Source of the DNA: Sulfurovum sp. UBA12169
Lineage (GTDB): Bacteria; Campylobacterota; Campylobacteria; Campylobacterales; Sulfurovaceae
Reading direction: 5' to 3'
Length of the DNA stretch: 64,000 nt
Assembly (NCBI GenBank): GCA_002742845.1
Contig: DLUH01000001.1
Location: 623,291 to 687,290 of the forward strand
In this document: in pieces, positions 1 to 46,603 of the stretch
Layout of the letters: each line of letters begins with the position of its first letter
Position numbering within the stretch: the first letter of the stretch is position 1
The notes under the pieces: generated by a model
The model's database searches: none
Told to the model about the DNA's origin: nothing
Seen by the model: only the letters and a program-made list of their open reading frames with translations
Translations under genes and position numbers: made by a program

Positions 1-1892
1 CAAACTTTAATGAATTTCTCATACGCCTCGATTGGCTTAGGCTCACCCAGATAATATCCTTGTGCATATTCGATTTCCAACTCTTTGATTTGCTCATAAA
101 TCATTTCATCGCAGACAAATTCAGCAACCAGTTTGTATTCAAAATCTTTAGCCAATTTTTGGATCGACTGAAGCACGATTTTAGTGCGCCGGAAAGAAGT
201 ATGAAGCTGAGATATAAGATTTCCGTCTATTTTGATAATATCGATATCCAAATGTATCAAATAATAATAGTTTGCATAGCCGCTTCCAAAATCATCGATG
301 GCAATTTTGGAACCGTAAGTTTTTAATTGCTGGAAAATCAATGCGACTTTGTCATAATCTTGTATTTCATGATATTCTAAAATCTCAAACGTCAATCGAT
401 TTGCCACTTCCCTGTTTTTATGGAGATGTTTTGTGATCAGCTTCATCATATCGCTGCTGTACAGATCGTCAAGATCAAGATTGATGCTTACTTGGATATC
501 TGAAAAAGTATGCAGAGTGCTAAAAACTTCCTCCAACACCAATTTGCTCATTTTGATGTATTGTGTGGTGCCTTTGATCACTTTTAAGAAATGATGAGGC
601 GTGATCAGTTTTTTGTCATCTTCTTTGTCGATCAATCGCACCAAAGCCTCGTATTTGATGATTTGTTTTGTTTGGGTGCAAACGATGGGCTGATAAAGAC
701 AGCATACTCTTTTTTCTTCCAGTGCTTCTTTGATATAGTTGATATCGCGGTATCTTAGATCATCGATGCTTTGCAGATCTAAAACGATAAAATTATTTTT
801 CCCGCCGCTTTTCACCTCAAGAAGCTTTTCATCCAGTATCCTTTGTATAGACAGCAAAGAAGATGCGCCCTTCGGAATAACCATGGCGCTCATGGAGATA
901 CTCAAAGAAACGATATTATTGCCCGTAAGGTATTTTTTTTCTTTCAGGATTTCAAACAGCTTTTGTGTCACTATCCCGATCTCGATCTCATTTTTTGGCA
1001 CAACGATAAAAAATTCTGTACCCCCTGTTCTTATGAGCTTTGCTTTTAAAGAAAGTTCGGCCAATACGGCCCGGACAAACTCTTTGATGATAGCATCTCC
1101 GGCATCATAACCGTATTTTTCATTGATCTCTTTAAATTCGTCTATATCGATTAGTATCGCATTGTATTCATCCAGTCTATTGCGGTTAAAAAATTCTTCC
1201 AGATAAAGTTTGGTATGTGCGCCCGTTAACATATCGTTTAAAATGCTTTGACGAAATTTATAGTAACGATACGCCATCAATCCCAGCAGCATCATACTCA
1301 CTATCAAAAAAACTTCCATTAAGCCGACAAGCATTTTCAAAGGAGAGTTGAAACTATTTAAATAATCGGCATATTCTTCTGAAAGATCGACAACCAAAAG
1401 TGCTTGCGTTTGCTCGTCTTCAACGATAGGATAAAGCAATGAAAGCCAAATTTTTTGGGTACCTTCCTGCTGTTTGGCTATGCCTGTTTTTTGCGTCTCA
1501 TACACCCGGTCAAATACACTGCTTTGCGGAAAAAAAATAGTTTTATATTCAACCGCATCTTCTTTTGATCCATCCAGCAAGAACCGGTAGTGCCCCTTGC
1601 TATCTTTTTTAAGCACAAAGATATACTGATACTTTTCATTTAAAAAAGCCTGCAGCACATCATTAAGCTGGCCTCTAAGCTTAGGACTGCTTGTGAGAGC
1701 CGACTCGATATGGTTGTTTGTTTTTGCTTGGAGGTACTGAGCTATTTTTTGGACATAATTTTCTGATTTTTGGATCTCGTCTTTTTTAAGTTTTTCTGTA
1801 TTTTCAACAATAGCATACTGCAAATACAAGGCAAAAAGGATAAGCAATCCTATGATGCCAAAAATAATTCGATTAAAGTATGGCTGCTTCAT
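1..1892 (-). CDS. Membrane GGDEF/EAL c-di-GMP signalling protein (3' end beyond window)
   Basis: At least 630 residues are visible and the frame runs off the left edge with no stop. TM helices lie at about 7-26 and 187-209 and bracket a roughly 160-residue periplasmic sensor region. A GGDEF-type domain follows (about 225-380), but its signature reads RTGGTEF (G290-F294), so the first acidic residue is lost and cyclase activity is doubtful. The EAL domain (from about 395) looks intact: EALVR with E415, a SINL Asn, FEILE, IDDFGSG with D533/D534, a KIDG lysine and the QGYYLGEP segment at Q611. I infer a c-di-GMP phosphodiesterase, perhaps with a GTP-sensing GGDEF. Its ATG overlaps the stop of the upstream gene as ATGA, which indicates translational coupling with the periplasmic and outer-membrane genes before it. 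Confidence 0.9.
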   Translation of the reverse strand, partial: MKQPYFNRIIFGIIGLLILFALYLQYAIVENTEKLKKDEIQKSENYVQKIAQYLQAKTNNHIESALTSSPKLRGQLNDVLQAFLNEKYQYIFVLKKDSKGHYRFLLDGSKEDAVEYKTIFFPQSSVFDRVYETQKTGIAKQQEGTQKIWLSLLYPIVEDEQTQALLVVDLSEEYADYLNSFNSPLKMLVGLMEVFLIVSMMLLGLMAYRYYKFRQSILNDMLTGAHTKLYLEEFFNRNRLDEYNAILIDIDEFKEINEKYGYDAGDAIIKEFVRAVLAELSLKAKLIRTGGTEFFIVVPKNEIEIGIVTQKLFEILKEKKYLTGNNIVSLSISMSAMVIPKGASSLLSIQRILDEKLLEVKSGGKNNFIVLDLQSIDDLRYRDINYIKEALEEKRVCCLYQPIVCTQTKQIIKYEALVRLIDKEDDKKLITPHHFLKVIKGTTQYIKMSKLVLEEVFSTLHTFSDIQVSINLDLDDLYSSDMMKLITKHLHKNREVANRLTFEILEYHEIQDYDKVALIFQQLKTYGSKIAIDDFGSGYANYYYLIHLDIDIIKIDGNLISQLHTSFRRTKIVLQSIQKLAKDFEYKLVAEFVCDEMIYEQIKELEIEYAQGYYLGEPKPIEAYEKFIKV

Positions 1893-2338
1893 AGCTCATC
1901 TATGACAAACTGATCATAACGTTTGGGCACGACAATATGGTGTTTATCTAATCTCTTTTTCAAAAATAACAATTGAGACCGTCCTTTTCTCCAGTAAAAC
2001 GCGCCCACTGCTTTTTCGCATGATTTCAGAAAATGATAATCCGTAGCAAACAAAAGCGGTTTACCTTCAGGGATTTGACCTTTTTTTCTTCTTGCCAGAT
2101 CCAGCATCTCTTCGGTTGTGATCAAAACGATATCGGATTTTTCAAAAGTATTCACCATCTCAATATCGGACGAATGCCTAAATACGCTTCTGTACTCTTT
2201 GTCGTCGACATAAAGATAGATAGGAGCCTTTAGACCAAGGGCCTCAAAGATGGTAGCATACATTTTGAGCGTACTTTCTCTCTCTAAAGCGTATAATTGC
2301 CCGCACAACAGTAAAAAGAAAAAGAAAAATCTTTTCAA
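1889..2338 (-). CDS. Small periplasmic protein, possibly YfiR-like (DUF4154)
   Basis: 149 residues with an N-terminal signal peptide (Phe/Leu-rich core at 4-13, likely cleavage near residue 17 after LYA). The C-terminal half has the layout I associate with YfiR/DUF4154 proteins: a strand ending SDIVLIT, then GKPLLFATDY, an AVGAFYWRKGR turn, a LLFLKKRLDKH strand and a final helix. That match is by eye and weak. YfiR proteins are periplasmic inhibitors of a membrane c-di-GMP enzyme. Here the gene overlaps both neighbours by four bases, with a TonB-type receptor before it and a membrane GGDEF/EAL protein after it, which fits a periplasmic adaptor. A solute-binding fragment is the alternative. 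Confidence 0.7.
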   Translation of the reverse strand: MKRFFFFFLLLCGQLYALERESTLKMYATIFEALGLKAPIYLYVDDKEYRSVFRHSSDIEMVNTFEKSDIVLITTEEMLDLARRKKGQIPEGKPLLFATDYHFLKSCEKAVGAFYWRKGRSQLLFLKKRLDKHHIVVPKRYDQFVIDEL

Positions 2339-4209
2339 AATATATACTCCAGCTCCAGCATGATTCTGCGATCTATCGGTGAGATAGACAAAGGGCTTAA
2401 AAACGAACCGCTAGAGAGGTCATATCTATAAAGATCGGTCTCTTTGGCTTTGTCCAAAAGATTTTCCCCTTTGAGCGTCAGCGTCAAATCTTCGTTGACA
2501 TTCCAGGTCACCGAACTGGTCAAATCCCAATAATTTTCCCAGTCAAGGCTGTTGCGGTGCCACACCAAACCGTTATAAAAATCCAAGTCTTCATACCGTT
2601 TAAAAAAGGTAAAAAACCCGCTCACATCCTCCAGTAAATCAAGTCCAAAAATATTTTTATATTCTGCGTAGTAGACCTGCGTAGTCAGTTTATTATTCGC
2701 ATCAAAACGATAGTCATAATTGAATACCGAAAAGAAATACTTGGTATCGCCTGACGCTCCGGGGTTTTGAACCAGTCCGTCCTCGTCTTTCATCAGAAGC
2801 AGCATCAACCGGATATATTGTTTTTCATCAGTATAAGCAAGCTCCTGCGTAAACCCCAGCGTCTTTTGCGCAGGCACACTCTCAGAAGTTGCATACCCCA
2901 AATATCTGCTTAAAGGATCCAGGGCAAACATCACCCGATACAGATAGGTCTTGTATGTCCAGTGTTCGTTGCCGTAGATATATCCTAAACGAAACTGCAT
3001 TAGGTTGTCATCTTCTACGCCGCCGTTTCTGCCAAAATGAATCCCTTCGATCCCCAACGTCAGCAGCTGATTTTCTGCAAGGGTATACTGGTCTTGCAAG
3101 AAAAGCGAAGCGATCGCTTCGCTGTCAAAATCCAAAGATATCTCCCCCCTACCCTGGGCACTCAAACGGTCAAGCTGTTTGAGCCTGCCTTTGACGCCTG
3201 CAGCGATCCTGTGTTTCCCAATCGTCTCTTGATAGGTCAGCTCCCCCGTATAAGCACTTGTCGTTGCCTCGGCATCCAACTCTGTTAGGCCGGGCGAAAA
3301 AAGACCCAGATAAAGCAAAGGAGTATCATCTTTGGCATAGATCCCTTTCTCAAGCCAGTCATAAGAAAACTGTGCGCGCCAATTCGCATCAAGATCGATC
3401 CCGTAGTCCATATGCACATTCAAATAATCCATTTTGCTGGCCTCAGGCGTCGCATCGTAACTAAGACCGGCCAAAGAATCGGCATTTTTCTTCATCACTT
3501 GAAGATGAAAGGTTTGATCATCTGTTTTGACATATGAAAAAAGCTGTGTGGTCTCATAGTCCCTTGACAAAGGAAGAGAGGTGCCGTTGTCTATCTTTTC
3601 GCGCTTCTCTTTGGTATGCGAAAAGTTAATCATATGAGCAAAATCTTTCTCTTGCTTGGCATAGCTGAGCGTTTGGGCATTATACCCCCTGCTTCCTCCG
3701 CTTAGGCCCAGTTGCCCTCCGCCGTCACGCTTGGGATCTTTGGAATAAAGAAAGATCGTCAGATAGGCAGGCTCCACAGAACTTTCGAAAGAAGGAATCA
3801 TATAGTAAAACTCGATATGATCGACAAAATCGATATTGATATCCCCATACAGTACCAGTCCGCTTCCTGCCCACCCCTGGGTGATCTCCACCCCGTCGAT
3901 GTAGAGCCGTATAAAATTGCTCCGGTAAGGCTCAAACGCACCGCTGGTAAGCGGATCGGGCAAGCCGAATCTGTTCTCATGATAATAGATCACCGGCGTA
4001 GTTTTGAAAACATCTCTAAGTGTTTTGGCACGCATCTCTTCAAGCTGTTCTCTGCCAAAAAGCACCAAATGCCCTTTGTTCTCATCGATAGTCTTTTGAC
4101 TTAAAGCATTTTTTTTGTCAAACTCCTGCATCATACCCTCAACACTTTGCGCATTGGCGGCAATGCACAAAAATACGCATAAAAGCGATACGCGCCTTAG
4201 TACGTTCAT
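2335..4209 (-). CDS. TonB-dependent receptor-type outer-membrane protein
   Basis: About 624 residues from the chosen ATG, which gives a normal signal peptide (NVLRRVSLLCVFLCIAANA). In-frame ATGs upstream extend to 4248 but put 13 residues before it, and none of these starts has a convincing ribosome site. After the signal comes a plug domain (about 35-160) with LRDVFKTTPVIYYHE and the typical RLYIDGVEITQG segment. A beta-barrel of alternating aromatic strands follows and ends in Phe (LELEYIF), as outer-membrane barrels do. Transport substrate is not evident, and no siderophore or metal genes are nearby. The gene overlaps the next one by four bases, so the receptor may signal to the downstream c-di-GMP enzyme rather than feed a transporter. 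The start is uncertain. Confidence 0.88.
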   Translation of the reverse strand: MNVLRRVSLLCVFLCIAANAQSVEGMMQEFDKKNALSQKTIDENKGHLVLFGREQLEEMRAKTLRDVFKTTPVIYYHENRFGLPDPLTSGAFEPYRSNFIRLYIDGVEITQGWAGSGLVLYGDINIDFVDHIEFYYMIPSFESSVEPAYLTIFLYSKDPKRDGGGQLGLSGGSRGYNAQTLSYAKQEKDFAHMINFSHTKEKREKIDNGTSLPLSRDYETTQLFSYVKTDDQTFHLQVMKKNADSLAGLSYDATPEASKMDYLNVHMDYGIDLDANWRAQFSYDWLEKGIYAKDDTPLLYLGLFSPGLTELDAEATTSAYTGELTYQETIGKHRIAAGVKGRLKQLDRLSAQGRGEISLDFDSEAIASLFLQDQYTLAENQLLTLGIEGIHFGRNGGVEDDNLMQFRLGYIYGNEHWTYKTYLYRVMFALDPLSRYLGYATSESVPAQKTLGFTQELAYTDEKQYIRLMLLLMKDEDGLVQNPGASGDTKYFFSVFNYDYRFDANNKLTTQVYYAEYKNIFGLDLLEDVSGFFTFFKRYEDLDFYNGLVWHRNSLDWENYWDLTSSVTWNVNEDLTLTLKGENLLDKAKETDLYRYDLSSGSFLSPLSISPIDRRIMLELEYIF

Positions 4210-12764: not shown

Positions 12765-13925
12765 ATGGAAGAGTTTGACATCAATGTTATCGAAACAAAA
12801 TGTCGCACAAACGGTGCAAAGATAAAAGCGATCGGTGTTGGCGGCGGTGGCGGCAATATGATTAACCATATGATCAATGAGGGGATTAGTGATATTGACC
12901 TAATCGTAGCCAATACGGATGCGCAGGCTTTGGAAACATCGGTTGCACCTTTTAAGTTACAGCTTGGTATGAATGCTACAAGAGGATTGGGCGCAGGAAT
13001 GATCCCGGACAAAGGAAGAGAGGCAGCGCTTGAAAGCTTTGAAGATATCAAATCAATGCTTCAGGGTTCGGATATAGTCTTTATTTCCGCAGGCCTTGGA
13101 GGCGGTACGGGAACAGGTGCAGCTCCCATTATTGCACAAGCAGCCAAAGAAGTAGGAGCCTTGACCGTTTCTATCGTTACAAGCCCTTTTAAATTTGAAG
13201 GTCGCAAAAGAACCAAACTTGCAAAAGAAGGCTTAGAAGAACTAAAAAGAGAAAGCGACTCCATCATTGTAGTTCCCAATGAAAAACTTCTCTCGATTGT
13301 AGAGAAAAATCTGGGCATTAAAGAGAGTTTTAGAATGGTTGATGATATTCTCTCTCAAGCAGTAGGCGGTATCTCAAAAGTCATTTTATCCCATGGTGAA
13401 AACGATATCAATCTTGATTTTGCCGATGTAAAAACAGTAATGAGCCATAAAGGACTTGCGCTGATGGGAGCCGGATACAGCACAGGAGCCAATGCAGCCT
13501 ATGATGCAGCAAAAGCGGCCATAGAATCCCCATTGCTTGATAATATTTCTATCGATGGGGCAATGGGTGTGCTCGTACACTTTGACATTCATCCTGATTA
13601 TCCGATTATGGAGATCAGCGAAGCGATGAATATTATCGAAGAGAGTGCCGATGAAGATGCAAGCGTTATCTTTGGAACGACCACCAATCTGGATATGGAT
13701 ATAGATGAAGTAAGAATCACTATTATTGCAACAGGATTTGAGGATAAAAATGCTATTGCAGAGCCCACAGTGAGACACCAAGAGACACTTCTTGGCAGCA
13801 GCACCTCTTCTTCAGCCACCATTCATACACTAAGAGCTGCAAACAAAATGGTTGTTGGCGGCTACAATGGTGAAAATGAAGATATTTTGGATGTCCCGAC
13901 TTTTCTCAGAAAACAGATGGACTGA
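12765..13925 (+). CDS. ftsZ: Cell division protein FtsZ
   Basis: 386 residues, the tubulin-like GTPase that forms the division ring. Seen: KAIGVGGGGGNMINHM near residue 21, the tubulin signature GGGTGTGAAPI, the T7 region with NLDFADVKTVM, and the conserved C-terminal peptide LDVPTFLRKQMD that binds FtsA. A strong ribosome site (AGGAGGGAG) precedes the ATG by seven bases. It is the last gene of the ppiD-ftsA-ftsZ unit, and a hairpin terminator follows directly. Confidence 0.97.
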   Translation: MEEFDINVIETKCRTNGAKIKAIGVGGGGGNMINHMINEGISDIDLIVANTDAQALETSVAPFKLQLGMNATRGLGAGMIPDKGREAALESFEDIKSMLQGSDIVFISAGLGGGTGTGAAPIIAQAAKEVGALTVSIVTSPFKFEGRKRTKLAKEGLEELKRESDSIIVVPNEKLLSIVEKNLGIKESFRMVDDILSQAVGGISKVILSHGENDINLDFADVKTVMSHKGLALMGAGYSTGANAAYDAAKAAIESPLLDNISIDGAMGVLVHFDIHPDYPIMEISEAMNIIEESADEDASVIFGTTTNLDMDIDEVRITIIATGFEDKNAIAEPTVRHQETLLGSSTSSSATIHTLRAANKMVVGGYNGENEDILDVPTFLRKQMD

Positions 13926-44495: not shown

Positions 44496-44784
44496 TTTAT
44501 CTCCACATTCATCAACGTTATAACAACTTTTTGTTTACATTCTCTACTATCCATGCACAATCTCTCCCAAAAAGCACAACTATTTTTTTGGCTGCAAAAT
44601 TGTAGAGATATTTTTTGAGCTAATAGATTTTTTTACACTATTTTGTCCAAAATGGCATCTTGCCCAATATTAATATTTTTTACTGAGCATATCTTTTTTA
44701 AGAGATTATAGCAAAATAGCATTAAGCAAAAAGGGGAAATAGAAAAATTCTAACTGCAAGACAAATAATATTAGAATTTATACA

Positions 44785-44799
44785 AGGTGCAACGATAAG
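44785..44799. repeat. 15-bp copy of the rnpB 3' end (distal att-like site)
   Basis: Exactly matches 46252-46266, the terminal bases of rnpB, in the same orientation. The two copies bound a 1.47-kb stretch with small accessory-type genes, in the arrangement left by an element integrated at the 3' end of an RNA gene. No integrase is present. Confidence 0.5.
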
Positions 44800-44841
44800 T
44801 TATGCCCTATTCCCGTATATACGATATCTATTCATGTGTTG

Positions 44842-44866
44842 GTGACACTTTTTGTGTCACTTTTTT
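44842..44866 (+). terminator. Strong plus-strand terminator without upstream gene
   Basis: GTGACAC and GTGTCAC form a perfect seven-base-pair stem with a TTTTT loop, followed by six T on the plus strand. On the minus strand no T-run follows. All genes nearby are on the minus strand, so it may end a short plus-strand RNA starting within about 200 bases upstream. Confidence 0.7.
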
Positions 44867-44926
44867 ACTAAAAGTTTCTCTGTTTTTTGTTTAGTTCAGA
44901 TTTCATAGAATTGCAATTTACACTAA

Positions 44927-45133
44927 TTAATCTGTTTTGTTCTCTATTTTGTCACCGGCATCTTCTACCGTGTCATCAGCTTTGTCTAAAGCATCTTTAG
45001 TATTATCCTTAATGTCACTTGCTACATTGTCAATTTTTTCTCCAGCCTTTTCTGCTGGTCCTTTTTCTTCACATCCTGTTACCGCAAGTACAAATGCAAC
45101 TAGCAATGTCCCTATTAATATTTTATTTTTCAT
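44927..45133 (-). CDS. Small helical lipoprotein
   Basis: 68 residues. Signal peptide with lipobox LAVTGC (Cys at 21), then a fully hydrophilic amphipathic helix with repeating acidic/basic heptad-like units: AEKAGEKIDNVASDIKDNTK and DALDKADDTVEDAGDKIENK. This resembles small LEA/YtxH-type stress proteins, but I do not claim a family. It has a good ribosome site (AAAGGAGAAATTT). It lies downstream of the sll1863-like gene and its decayed neighbour on the same strand, inside the stretch bounded by the rnpB-end repeats. Confidence 0.75.
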   Translation of the reverse strand: MKNKILIGTLLVAFVLAVTGCEEKGPAEKAGEKIDNVASDIKDNTKDALDKADDTVEDAGDKIENKTD

Positions 45134-45196
45134 AAATTTCTCCTTTAAAATTGTTTTTAATATCCGATGCAGAATAATCTACTTCGTCTATACACT

Positions 45197-45322
45197 TCAA
45201 CGTCCTGTAATCCAAAAGATTACTGCCATTATTAATCCTGCTACAAGTTTCTTTGAAGATTCTTCTTTTTTAGACTTAAGTTCTTCTATGTATCTTCAAT
45301 TTTATTTTCCAGGTGCTTATTT
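45197..45322 (-). pseudogene. Decayed small membrane protein gene
   Basis: Two frames join to read HLENKIEDT, then IEELKSKKEESSKKLVAGLI followed by MAVIFWITGR and a stop. A single missing base around 45285-45290 breaks the frame, and the expected start position before NKHLENK reads TTA rather than ATG. The restored protein, about 40 residues, would be a charged helix followed by one TM helix. It sits directly after the sll1863-like gene on the same strand. The reconstruction is mine and could be a coincidence. Confidence 0.35.
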
Positions 45323-45604
45323 AAATTTTGAAGCGAGGGACTTCATCATATTACCTAGTGAATCCCACGCATTTTCGATGCCTGCTTTCATATCTTCCCA
45401 TGCATCATCACCAGCATCTTTGAGATCAATAAGCTTACTGCTGGCCTCTTCTTGCATGGATCGTAGTGCTTCGATTTCCTGATATAATTCAAGTTGTAAA
45501 TCCGCTTCTGCTTCATCCGCTTCTGCCTTCAGTTTGTCAATATCTGCACTCCACTGATCTAGTTTCGCCTGTAACTTATCCTCATAACTATCTTTCATAC
45601 TCAT
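45317..45604 (-). CDS. sll1863-family stress-type coiled-coil protein
   Basis: About 95 residues from the ATG at 45604, chosen for its AAGGA nine bases upstream; an ATG at 45622 has none. The whole protein is helical and charged: SYEDKLQAKLDQWSADIDKL, a long EADEAEADLQLELYQEIEAL segment, then the C-terminal DAGDDAWEDMKAGIENAWDS with LGNMMKSL. The DDAWEDMKAG..AWDSL tail and DQWSADIDKL start are features I associate with the sll1863 stress-response family. The role is unknown in detail. It is the first gene of the small minus-strand group between the rnpB-end repeats. Confidence 0.75.
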   Translation of the reverse strand: MSMKDSYEDKLQAKLDQWSADIDKLKAEADEAEADLQLELYQEIEALRSMQEEASSKLIDLKDAGDDAWEDMKAGIENAWDSLGNMMKSLASKFK

Positions 45605-45622
45605 GATTAATTTCCTTTTCAA

Positions 45623-46251
45623 GATTTACTTTATACTCAGATTCTAATAATTCTTTAAAAGTACTAAAATCACCTTTTTTTAATTATAGGTCTAACAATA
45701 ATAATGTATAACTATTAATCTAAAACTCCCCTGAAAGCCAAAAACATGAAATAATGTTTCTTAATTATTAGTAGATTTTTTGTGGAATTATCTCAACCAA
45801 AAAACTATCACTCCTACGATTAGAAGCCCATAATCTTGAGGAACCACAACAAGATTTCTGCCAAAAATGAAAGAATTGTTAAGAATAATTTTAAAAAATT
45901 AGATTAGGTTGATCCAGACTGCCAGAATAGTAGTTTTTAGAGATGCCAATATATAATTTTTATACTATTTTGATTTGTAATGATCTGGATATTCAAGAGA
46001 AAAAATACTAAGATTTTTTTTGACTGATACTGTATTATAATAAAATATAAATTTTTATTATTGTAAGTGGATGTTTAAAATAGCCGGAGTTGGTGATGTG
46101 CTGCATTAACTGTCCATAAACTGACAGTGGTGCAAAATTTCACTTGAGATTAGAATTTGCGTAATATTATAATGTTTCAGTTACGTTAAAAATAGTGAAG
46201 ACTATATAAATAAAAGTATGTAATTTAGGAGAACAATCCCTATGAAATTAC
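45623..46251. other. AT-rich intergenic stretch upstream of the sll1863-like gene
   Basis: About 630 bases with no supportable gene. The part nearest 45623 should hold the promoter of the sll1863-like gene. An inverted repeat ACTGTC/GACAGT with an eight-base spacer lies at 46109-46128, and GTAATTT/AAATTAC at 46220-46226 and 46245-46251 abuts the rnpB 3' end and may act as its terminator. No coding remnant could be read. Confidence 0.55.
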
Positions 46252-46266
46252 AGGTGCAACGATAAG
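46252..46266. repeat. 15-bp rnpB-end repeat (proximal att-like site)
   Basis: The last 15 bases of rnpB, repeated exactly at 44785-44799. See the finding for the geometry. Confidence 0.5.
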
Positions 46267-46603
46267 CCGGGTTCTGTCTTGGGTAGTTATTTATCTAGGC
46301 ACAGTGTTACCACTACGCTCAAGCAAAGTATAAATGCCAAGTTAATGGCTTGTGAGACTCATACCATATACTTCTTGCTACGGACAGGGTTTACCTGGCT
46401 GCTCTTGTTGCCAAAAGCACCGGTGGGCTCTTACCCCACCCTTTCACTATCACCTGCCGATAGAACACCGACAGGCTACCTACTCTCTGTTGCACTTGCC
46501 CTCAGATTACTCTGGCCATCCGTTAGATGGAGCCCTGTCTCACTTGTAGCCCGGACTTTCCTCTCGCAGCGATTATGCTGCCAGCAACTACCTGTTGCAC
46601 CTT
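46252..46603 (-). ncRNA. rnpB: RNase P RNA
   Basis: About 350 bases on the minus strand. The 5' part reads GAGGAAAGTCCGGGC, and the 3' part AGACAGAACCCGGCTTA, both universal RNase P core segments. GGGTAAGAGCCCACCG is also present. The ends pair as the P1 helix, AGGTGCAAC with GTTGCACCT. This is a bacterial A-type RNA that cleaves 5' leaders from tRNA precursors. An open frame on the other strand here is an antisense shadow. Confidence 0.95.

Follow-up and report, generated by a model that had tools for sequence, protein, structure and literature searches.

An integrase-less mini-island at the 3' end of rnpB in Sulfurovum sp. UBA12169 and the recurrent use of this integration site

The rnpB gene encodes the RNA of RNase P, an essential ribozyme. 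In the window, i.e., the whole stretch of 64,000 nucleotides of Sulfurovum sp. UBA12169 that was analysed (contig DLUH01000001.1, positions 623,291 to 687,290), rnpB is recognised by the Rfam model RF00010 (268 bits, E 2.6e-86; Table 1). Its 3' end is a 15-base sequence, AGGTGCAACGATAAG, and the original prediction that this RNA end recurs 1.47 kb away in the same orientation is borne out by two exact direct copies with 1467 bp from start to start. The 1.86-Mb genome contains the 15-mer only these two times, with no other place at up to one mismatch and none for the reversed control, and 100 dinucleotide shuffles of the window averaged 0.06 matches at up to two mismatches and never reached two. 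The base pattern of rnpB is kept in relatives through AGG and is variable directly beyond, so that the boundary of the repeat coincides with the conserved end of the RNA.

Table 1. Features of the rnpB-associated island and its surroundings (positions in the window).
Feature	Position	Strand	Basis
Native flank, adjoins rnpB in the empty site	44496..44784	.	Alignment to G037 (L046)
Displaced (distal) core copy	44785..44799	+	Exact repeat, followed by TTATGCCC as in other islands
Island interior	44800..46251	.	Absent from G037; G+C 31% vs 39-40% in flanks
Distal element end, class A	44800..44871	+	Similarity to six other element ends
Paired arm-type repeats GGTGACAC/GTGTCAC, presumed integrase arm sites	44841..44860	+	Read in the sequence
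Putative small lipoprotein, 68 aa	44927..45133	-	ORF; lipoprotein-family matches sub-threshold only
sll1863-family stress response gene	45317..45622	-	NCBIfam NF052504 above cut-off
rnpB-proximal element end	46162..46251	+	82-85% identical to rnpB-adjacent ends of G054 (L037) and G031 (L071)
Hairpin directly after the rnpB 3' end, island-derived	46220..46251	-	Predicted fold -8.1 kcal/mol, z -2.2 (base-content shuffles)
rnpB, RNase P RNA class A (target gene)	46247..46603	-	Rfam RF00010
rnpB-side core copy, the intact rnpB 3' end	46252..46266	+	Exact repeat, conserved in relatives

The interval between the copies had been predicted to hold an sll1863-like gene, a lipoprotein gene and a decayed membrane protein gene but no integrase. 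The first of these holds, with a 101-aa product that matches the sll1863 stress response family NF052504 well over its cut-off (E 4.4e-32; 110.2 bits vs 35). The lipoprotein stands in part: a small ORF looks like one, but no family matches it above cut-off. The decayed membrane protein could not be substantiated, with only a run of ca. 30 codons between stops at 45134-45330 of the minus strand. No integrase ORF was found in 44785-46266, as had been claimed, and integrase matches elsewhere in the same genome are at most 30% identical and include no close relative of the integrases described below for rnpB sites. Inovirus genes (Zot/pI ATPase, coat, Rep) are likewise absent from the island.

Over its 72 bp, the distal end of the island resembles element ends in six other genomes (our G numbers, with L numbers for single loci), i.e., G054 (81% identity), G012 (78%), G064 and G010 (75% each) as well as G005 and G057 (72% each), compared with a mean of about 30% and a maximum of 50% for shuffles. 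Two of the six, G012 and G005 (72-78%), have an integrase, which in G005 is on a separate contig. Other element ends have equivalents of the distal pair of arm-type repeats at the matching position, and G012 has a similar pair at -163 from its rnpB core, on the integrase side. A search for a proximal pair in the window gave a best match with p 0.025 on one of two strands only, which we did not accept as a hidden proximal arm. We also set aside an integron-like cassette, since paired arm repeats fit a phage-type integrase.

At the other side, the last 90 bp of the island before rnpB show partial likeness also to G038 and G028 besides G054 and G031, and these four genomes lie apart from one another on a sucD tree. 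No distal end was found in G031, G038 or G028, and their window-type ends are therefore not proven island ends. A dispersed repeat or an IS end was rejected because the 92-bp proximal end is present as a single copy, at rnpB, both in G054 and in the own genome; the three remaining genome matches extend over just 25-33 bp, and the same search missed the local match in G031. This end includes the hairpin, whose fold is stronger in three of the four similar ends, though the same hairpin is not formed in L040. Against shuffles that preserve base content only, the fold z scores of occupied window-type ends are -2.2, -5.7, -3.4, -4.0 and, for L040, -1.8, those of nine empty sites range from -2.8 to 1.2, and a second type of end (G057, G015, G042, G067 and G068) folds weakly except in G057. 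We considered that the window-type end might simply be the native terminator of rnpB, as similar ends do occur in relatives, but their scatter over the sucD tree, on which their neighbours differ, makes this less probable.

Our search for the rnpB end at up to two mismatches in 120 relatives was positive in 49 genomes (own included), and 40 of the 49 rnpB places, all outside the own genome, were compared (left out were G091, G023 with two, G071, G013, G058, G059, G063 and G088). The closest relative compared, G037, has por proteins 97.6-100% identical to those of the window and yields the empty site with one copy of the 15-mer that the original prediction had called for, having counted the lack of any such genome against itself. 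In G037, a molybdopterin-oxidoreductase gene ends 291 bp from rnpB, compared with 1757 bp in the window, and the island is absent: the left flank of the window aligns up to the first core and is joined directly to rnpB from the second core, with a single core connecting both flanks exactly as an insertion model predicts (484 identities in 531 aligned positions, rnpB side included). The insertion is thus precise at the rnpB end, the gene has been rebuilt, and the island is missing from the sister genome.

The same arrangement recurs among relatives. Seven of the 40 loci have a displaced copy of their own rnpB end downstream (at up to two mismatches) that is followed by TTAT and reads GATAAG|TTAT as in the window, bounding islands of 2466 bp (G016), 4337 bp (G024), 3727 bp (G055), 13708 bp (G035), 3105 bp (G057), 13236 bp (G056) and 733 bp (G053). 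A reversed-core control gave matches in three of 40 loci, all with three mismatches. Relatives with such repeats had been anticipated, and these displaced own-core copies with their conserved GATAAG/TTAT end establish the rnpB end as a recurrent attB in Sulfurovum. The distal-end motif was found at up to one mismatch in 19 of 200 genomes (own included) vs three with the reversed pattern, though the matches in G038, where it lies within a gene, and in G079 may be due to chance. In G136, a member of another genus, 63 bp separate the motif from the same native gene, and there are further ORFs in the interior.

Candidate enzymes for this site are visible in some of these genomes. A protein search of 100 genomes found integrase matches of at least 50% identity in nine, and in eight of these the integrase lies beside rnpB on the same contig, either as a gene (G035, G056, G009 and G029) or as pieces and broken genes (G016, G055, G059 and G012, the last interrupted by an IS30-like gene); in the ninth, G005, it lies on a 3-kb contig without rnpB. 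Integrases with rnpB targets, another expectation of the original prediction, are thus encoded beside rnpB in relatives, and the users of the site share one tyrosine-integrase family (51-54% identity, with 54% between G005 and G035) as well as paired repeats of the arm type close to the ends of their elements. The G005 contig (L155, G005:C160) has two different tyrosine recombinase genes at 296-1630 and 1888-3033 that flank a small helix-turn-helix gene.

Several of the integrase-bearing elements look like phages. Alongside its integrase, the G035 element (L052) has a match to a major coat protein (7.8e-4) and encodes proteins of the Zot-like (1.6e-13), pIV-like secretin (1.2e-19) and GPA-type Rep (3.6e-14) kinds, and the G056 element (L054) has the same layout judging from its ORFs, families having been scanned for L052 only. 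Both have the appearance of filamentous-phage-like prophages of 13.2-13.7 kb integrated at rnpB. A 32.7-kb IMG/VR contig (L177/L179/L180) with terminase, portal, capsid and tape-measure genes is a tailed phage, and its attP presents the 15-mer between two arm pairs adjoining an integrase that shares 51% identity with the G005 enzyme. Searching viral contigs with two integrases returned no match, a weak null because one motif-bearing viral contig does encode a relative. In G029, rnpB itself ends in a different sequence (GGTACGCCATAAG). The displaced copy, at a distance of 39.9 kb, agrees with this own variant, and the arm repeat GGTACACTTTTGGTACACC is present on both sides of the element. Core and target of this 39.9-kb element (L188/L160, G029:C2:502214-542127) appear to have changed together. 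No conjugation genes were seen in the islands that were read.

We consider the 1467-bp segment very probably a CIME-like mini-element that was placed by an rnpB-specific integrase, acting either in trans or lost since. Its non-autonomous character follows from the lack of an integrase in the island and of any close relative in the genome. Entry would have occurred by site-specific recombination of the chromosomal rnpB 3' end with the copy borne by the element, with rnpB rebuilt exactly by the incoming copy and, as the empty site shows, the original end displaced to 44785. Recombination was most likely carried out by an enzyme of the tyrosine-integrase family found beside rnpB in other Sulfurovum genomes, to which the similarity of ends and arms points. 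The island would have delivered the sll1863-type stress gene and the putative small lipoprotein gene, and its hairpin would now take the position behind rnpB that the native downstream sequence held before its displacement. Against this mini-element reading, no integrase-bearing element with the exact cargo of the window was present among the genomes compared, and the proximal arm repeats of G012 have no clear counterpart in the window. Several of the relatives' assemblies are also fragmented, and some rnpB sites that look occupied hold ordinary chromosomal genes only.

As to its origin, the island could be a passenger moved by a helper phage integrase in trans or what remained after loss of the integrase side, and we give these two possibilities about equal weight. 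A complete element with its own integrase may have entered rnpB and decayed in situ until an immobile 1.5-kb relic was left, which we hold to be a serious possibility of slightly less than even weight. Integrase pieces at rnpB in G016, G055 and G059 and the IS-interrupted integrase of G012 speak for such decay, and the window has no clear proximal arm. Moreover, the integrase-less island of G057 matches the cargo of the G012 element with 81% DNA identity over 2.9 kb and diverges just after, stopping short of the integrase. The proximal end of the window, however, is unlike that of G012. It is shared with ends next to rnpB in genomes from scattered places on the sucD tree, a distribution that suggests an end travelling separately and not a scar left by deletion.

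PICIs and other phage satellites are small elements that depend on helper phages. The integrase-less mini-islands may analogously form a standing family that borrows the integrase of rnpB-targeting phages, an account that we find just as credible as in-situ decay and likewise a little short of even. The islands of the window, G057, G024 and G053 (0.7-4.3 kb) all lack an integrase and have both ends on one contig, with ends that are not of the filamentous-phage type. The distal end of the window resembles ends of integrase-bearing elements, its type of proximal end recurs in scattered genomes, and the cargo of such islands is compact, with TOTE primase-helicase and toxin-antitoxin genes. Counting against a satellite family, the islands of the window, G057 and G024 each show evident arm repeats in one set only, and G057 is equally readable as a deletion derivative. 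We tentatively propose, with somewhat more doubt than belief, that the rnpB end is a docking site shared in Sulfurovum by unrelated elements, namely filamentous phages, tailed phages and small islands, through one integrase family and that the mini-islands are satellites borne by phage integrases. If so, satellites would keep only the core, the arm repeats and the rnpB-adjacent hairpin, and they would move genes for defence, toxin-antitoxin systems and stress from one species to another by means of an integrase supplied by phages.

By contrast, it is very improbable that the empty sites are losses, i.e., that the island genes have an ancestral place beside rnpB and relatives lost them by deletion between the two cores, even if precise excision by a tyrosine integrase is conceivable. 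The tree already disfavours such an ancestral-then-lost history: 10 of the 40 relatives have an empty site (defined by a native downstream gene less than 500 bp from rnpB), and they fall on several branches and include the outgroup G034 as a second empty site. In addition, sll1863-like homologues have different surroundings in G001, G070 and G073, and the G+C content of the island is eight points below that of its flanks. A chance match of 15 bases can be dismissed given the uniqueness and exactness of the repeat in the genome, the precise empty site and the same event in other genomes.

Among known systems, the island is like the prophages and islands at tRNA and tmRNA 3' ends (e.g., Islander, PMC4383910), where the RNA-gene fragment of the element rebuilds the gene and the displaced fragment marks the far end, but its target is rnpB and it has no integrase. 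It is also like a CIME, which the available part of PMC5704250 presents as an element without its integration and transfer genes that retains attL and attR, in having both exact core copies and no integrase ORF. That part also leads one to expect tandem accretion of CIMEs, and G057 suggests such an island-on-island arrangement. For the island, descent from an ICE or IME is a possibility only; its integrase-bearing relatives are phage-like, and its arms are evident distally only. The flank beyond the far core of L053 (G057) resembles the hairpin end of another island, which suggests two islands in tandem.

With phage satellites of the PICI kind (PMC10111431), the island would share its small size and a possible dependence on a helper, here for the integrase, but it lacks regulatory, capsid-hijacking and packaging genes. 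The G035 element, with its coat, Zot-like, secretin, rolling-circle Rep and integrase genes, resembles the inoviruses with tyrosine integrase in the part of PMC6813254 at hand, whereas not one of them is present in the island of the window. In the literature covered (titles and abstracts, with subscription papers and supplements outside this scope), we recognised no paper that describes integration at rnpB; the term rnpB is absent from the available text of PMC12884075, PMC6813254 and PMC5704250, while that of PMC8776855 has it once in an unrelated use. Several kinds of element use rnpB within a single genus, and their integrase, core and arm sites and, in G029, even a core matched to a target variant can all be seen. 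This offers a ready system for testing how integrases keep up with a target that changes and whether islands without an integrase are carried along by those of phages.

Among the other islands that are integrase-less or have a class A end, TOTE primase-helicase genes were identified in G024 and G057 by Pfam and in G010 and G012 by DNA similarity, making this type of protein a recurring rnpB-island cargo in four genomes (L036, L053, L152 and L156). Toxin-antitoxin-like genes are carried by G057 (Pfam) as well as by G005 and G042 (ORF reading, with 87% mutual DNA identity), and G064 carries an amidohydrolase-like ORF (ORF reading). In the rnpB island of G016 (L033), a PBECR3-like nuclease that scores just below its curated cut-off is encoded at 13243-13650 beside the truncated integrase.
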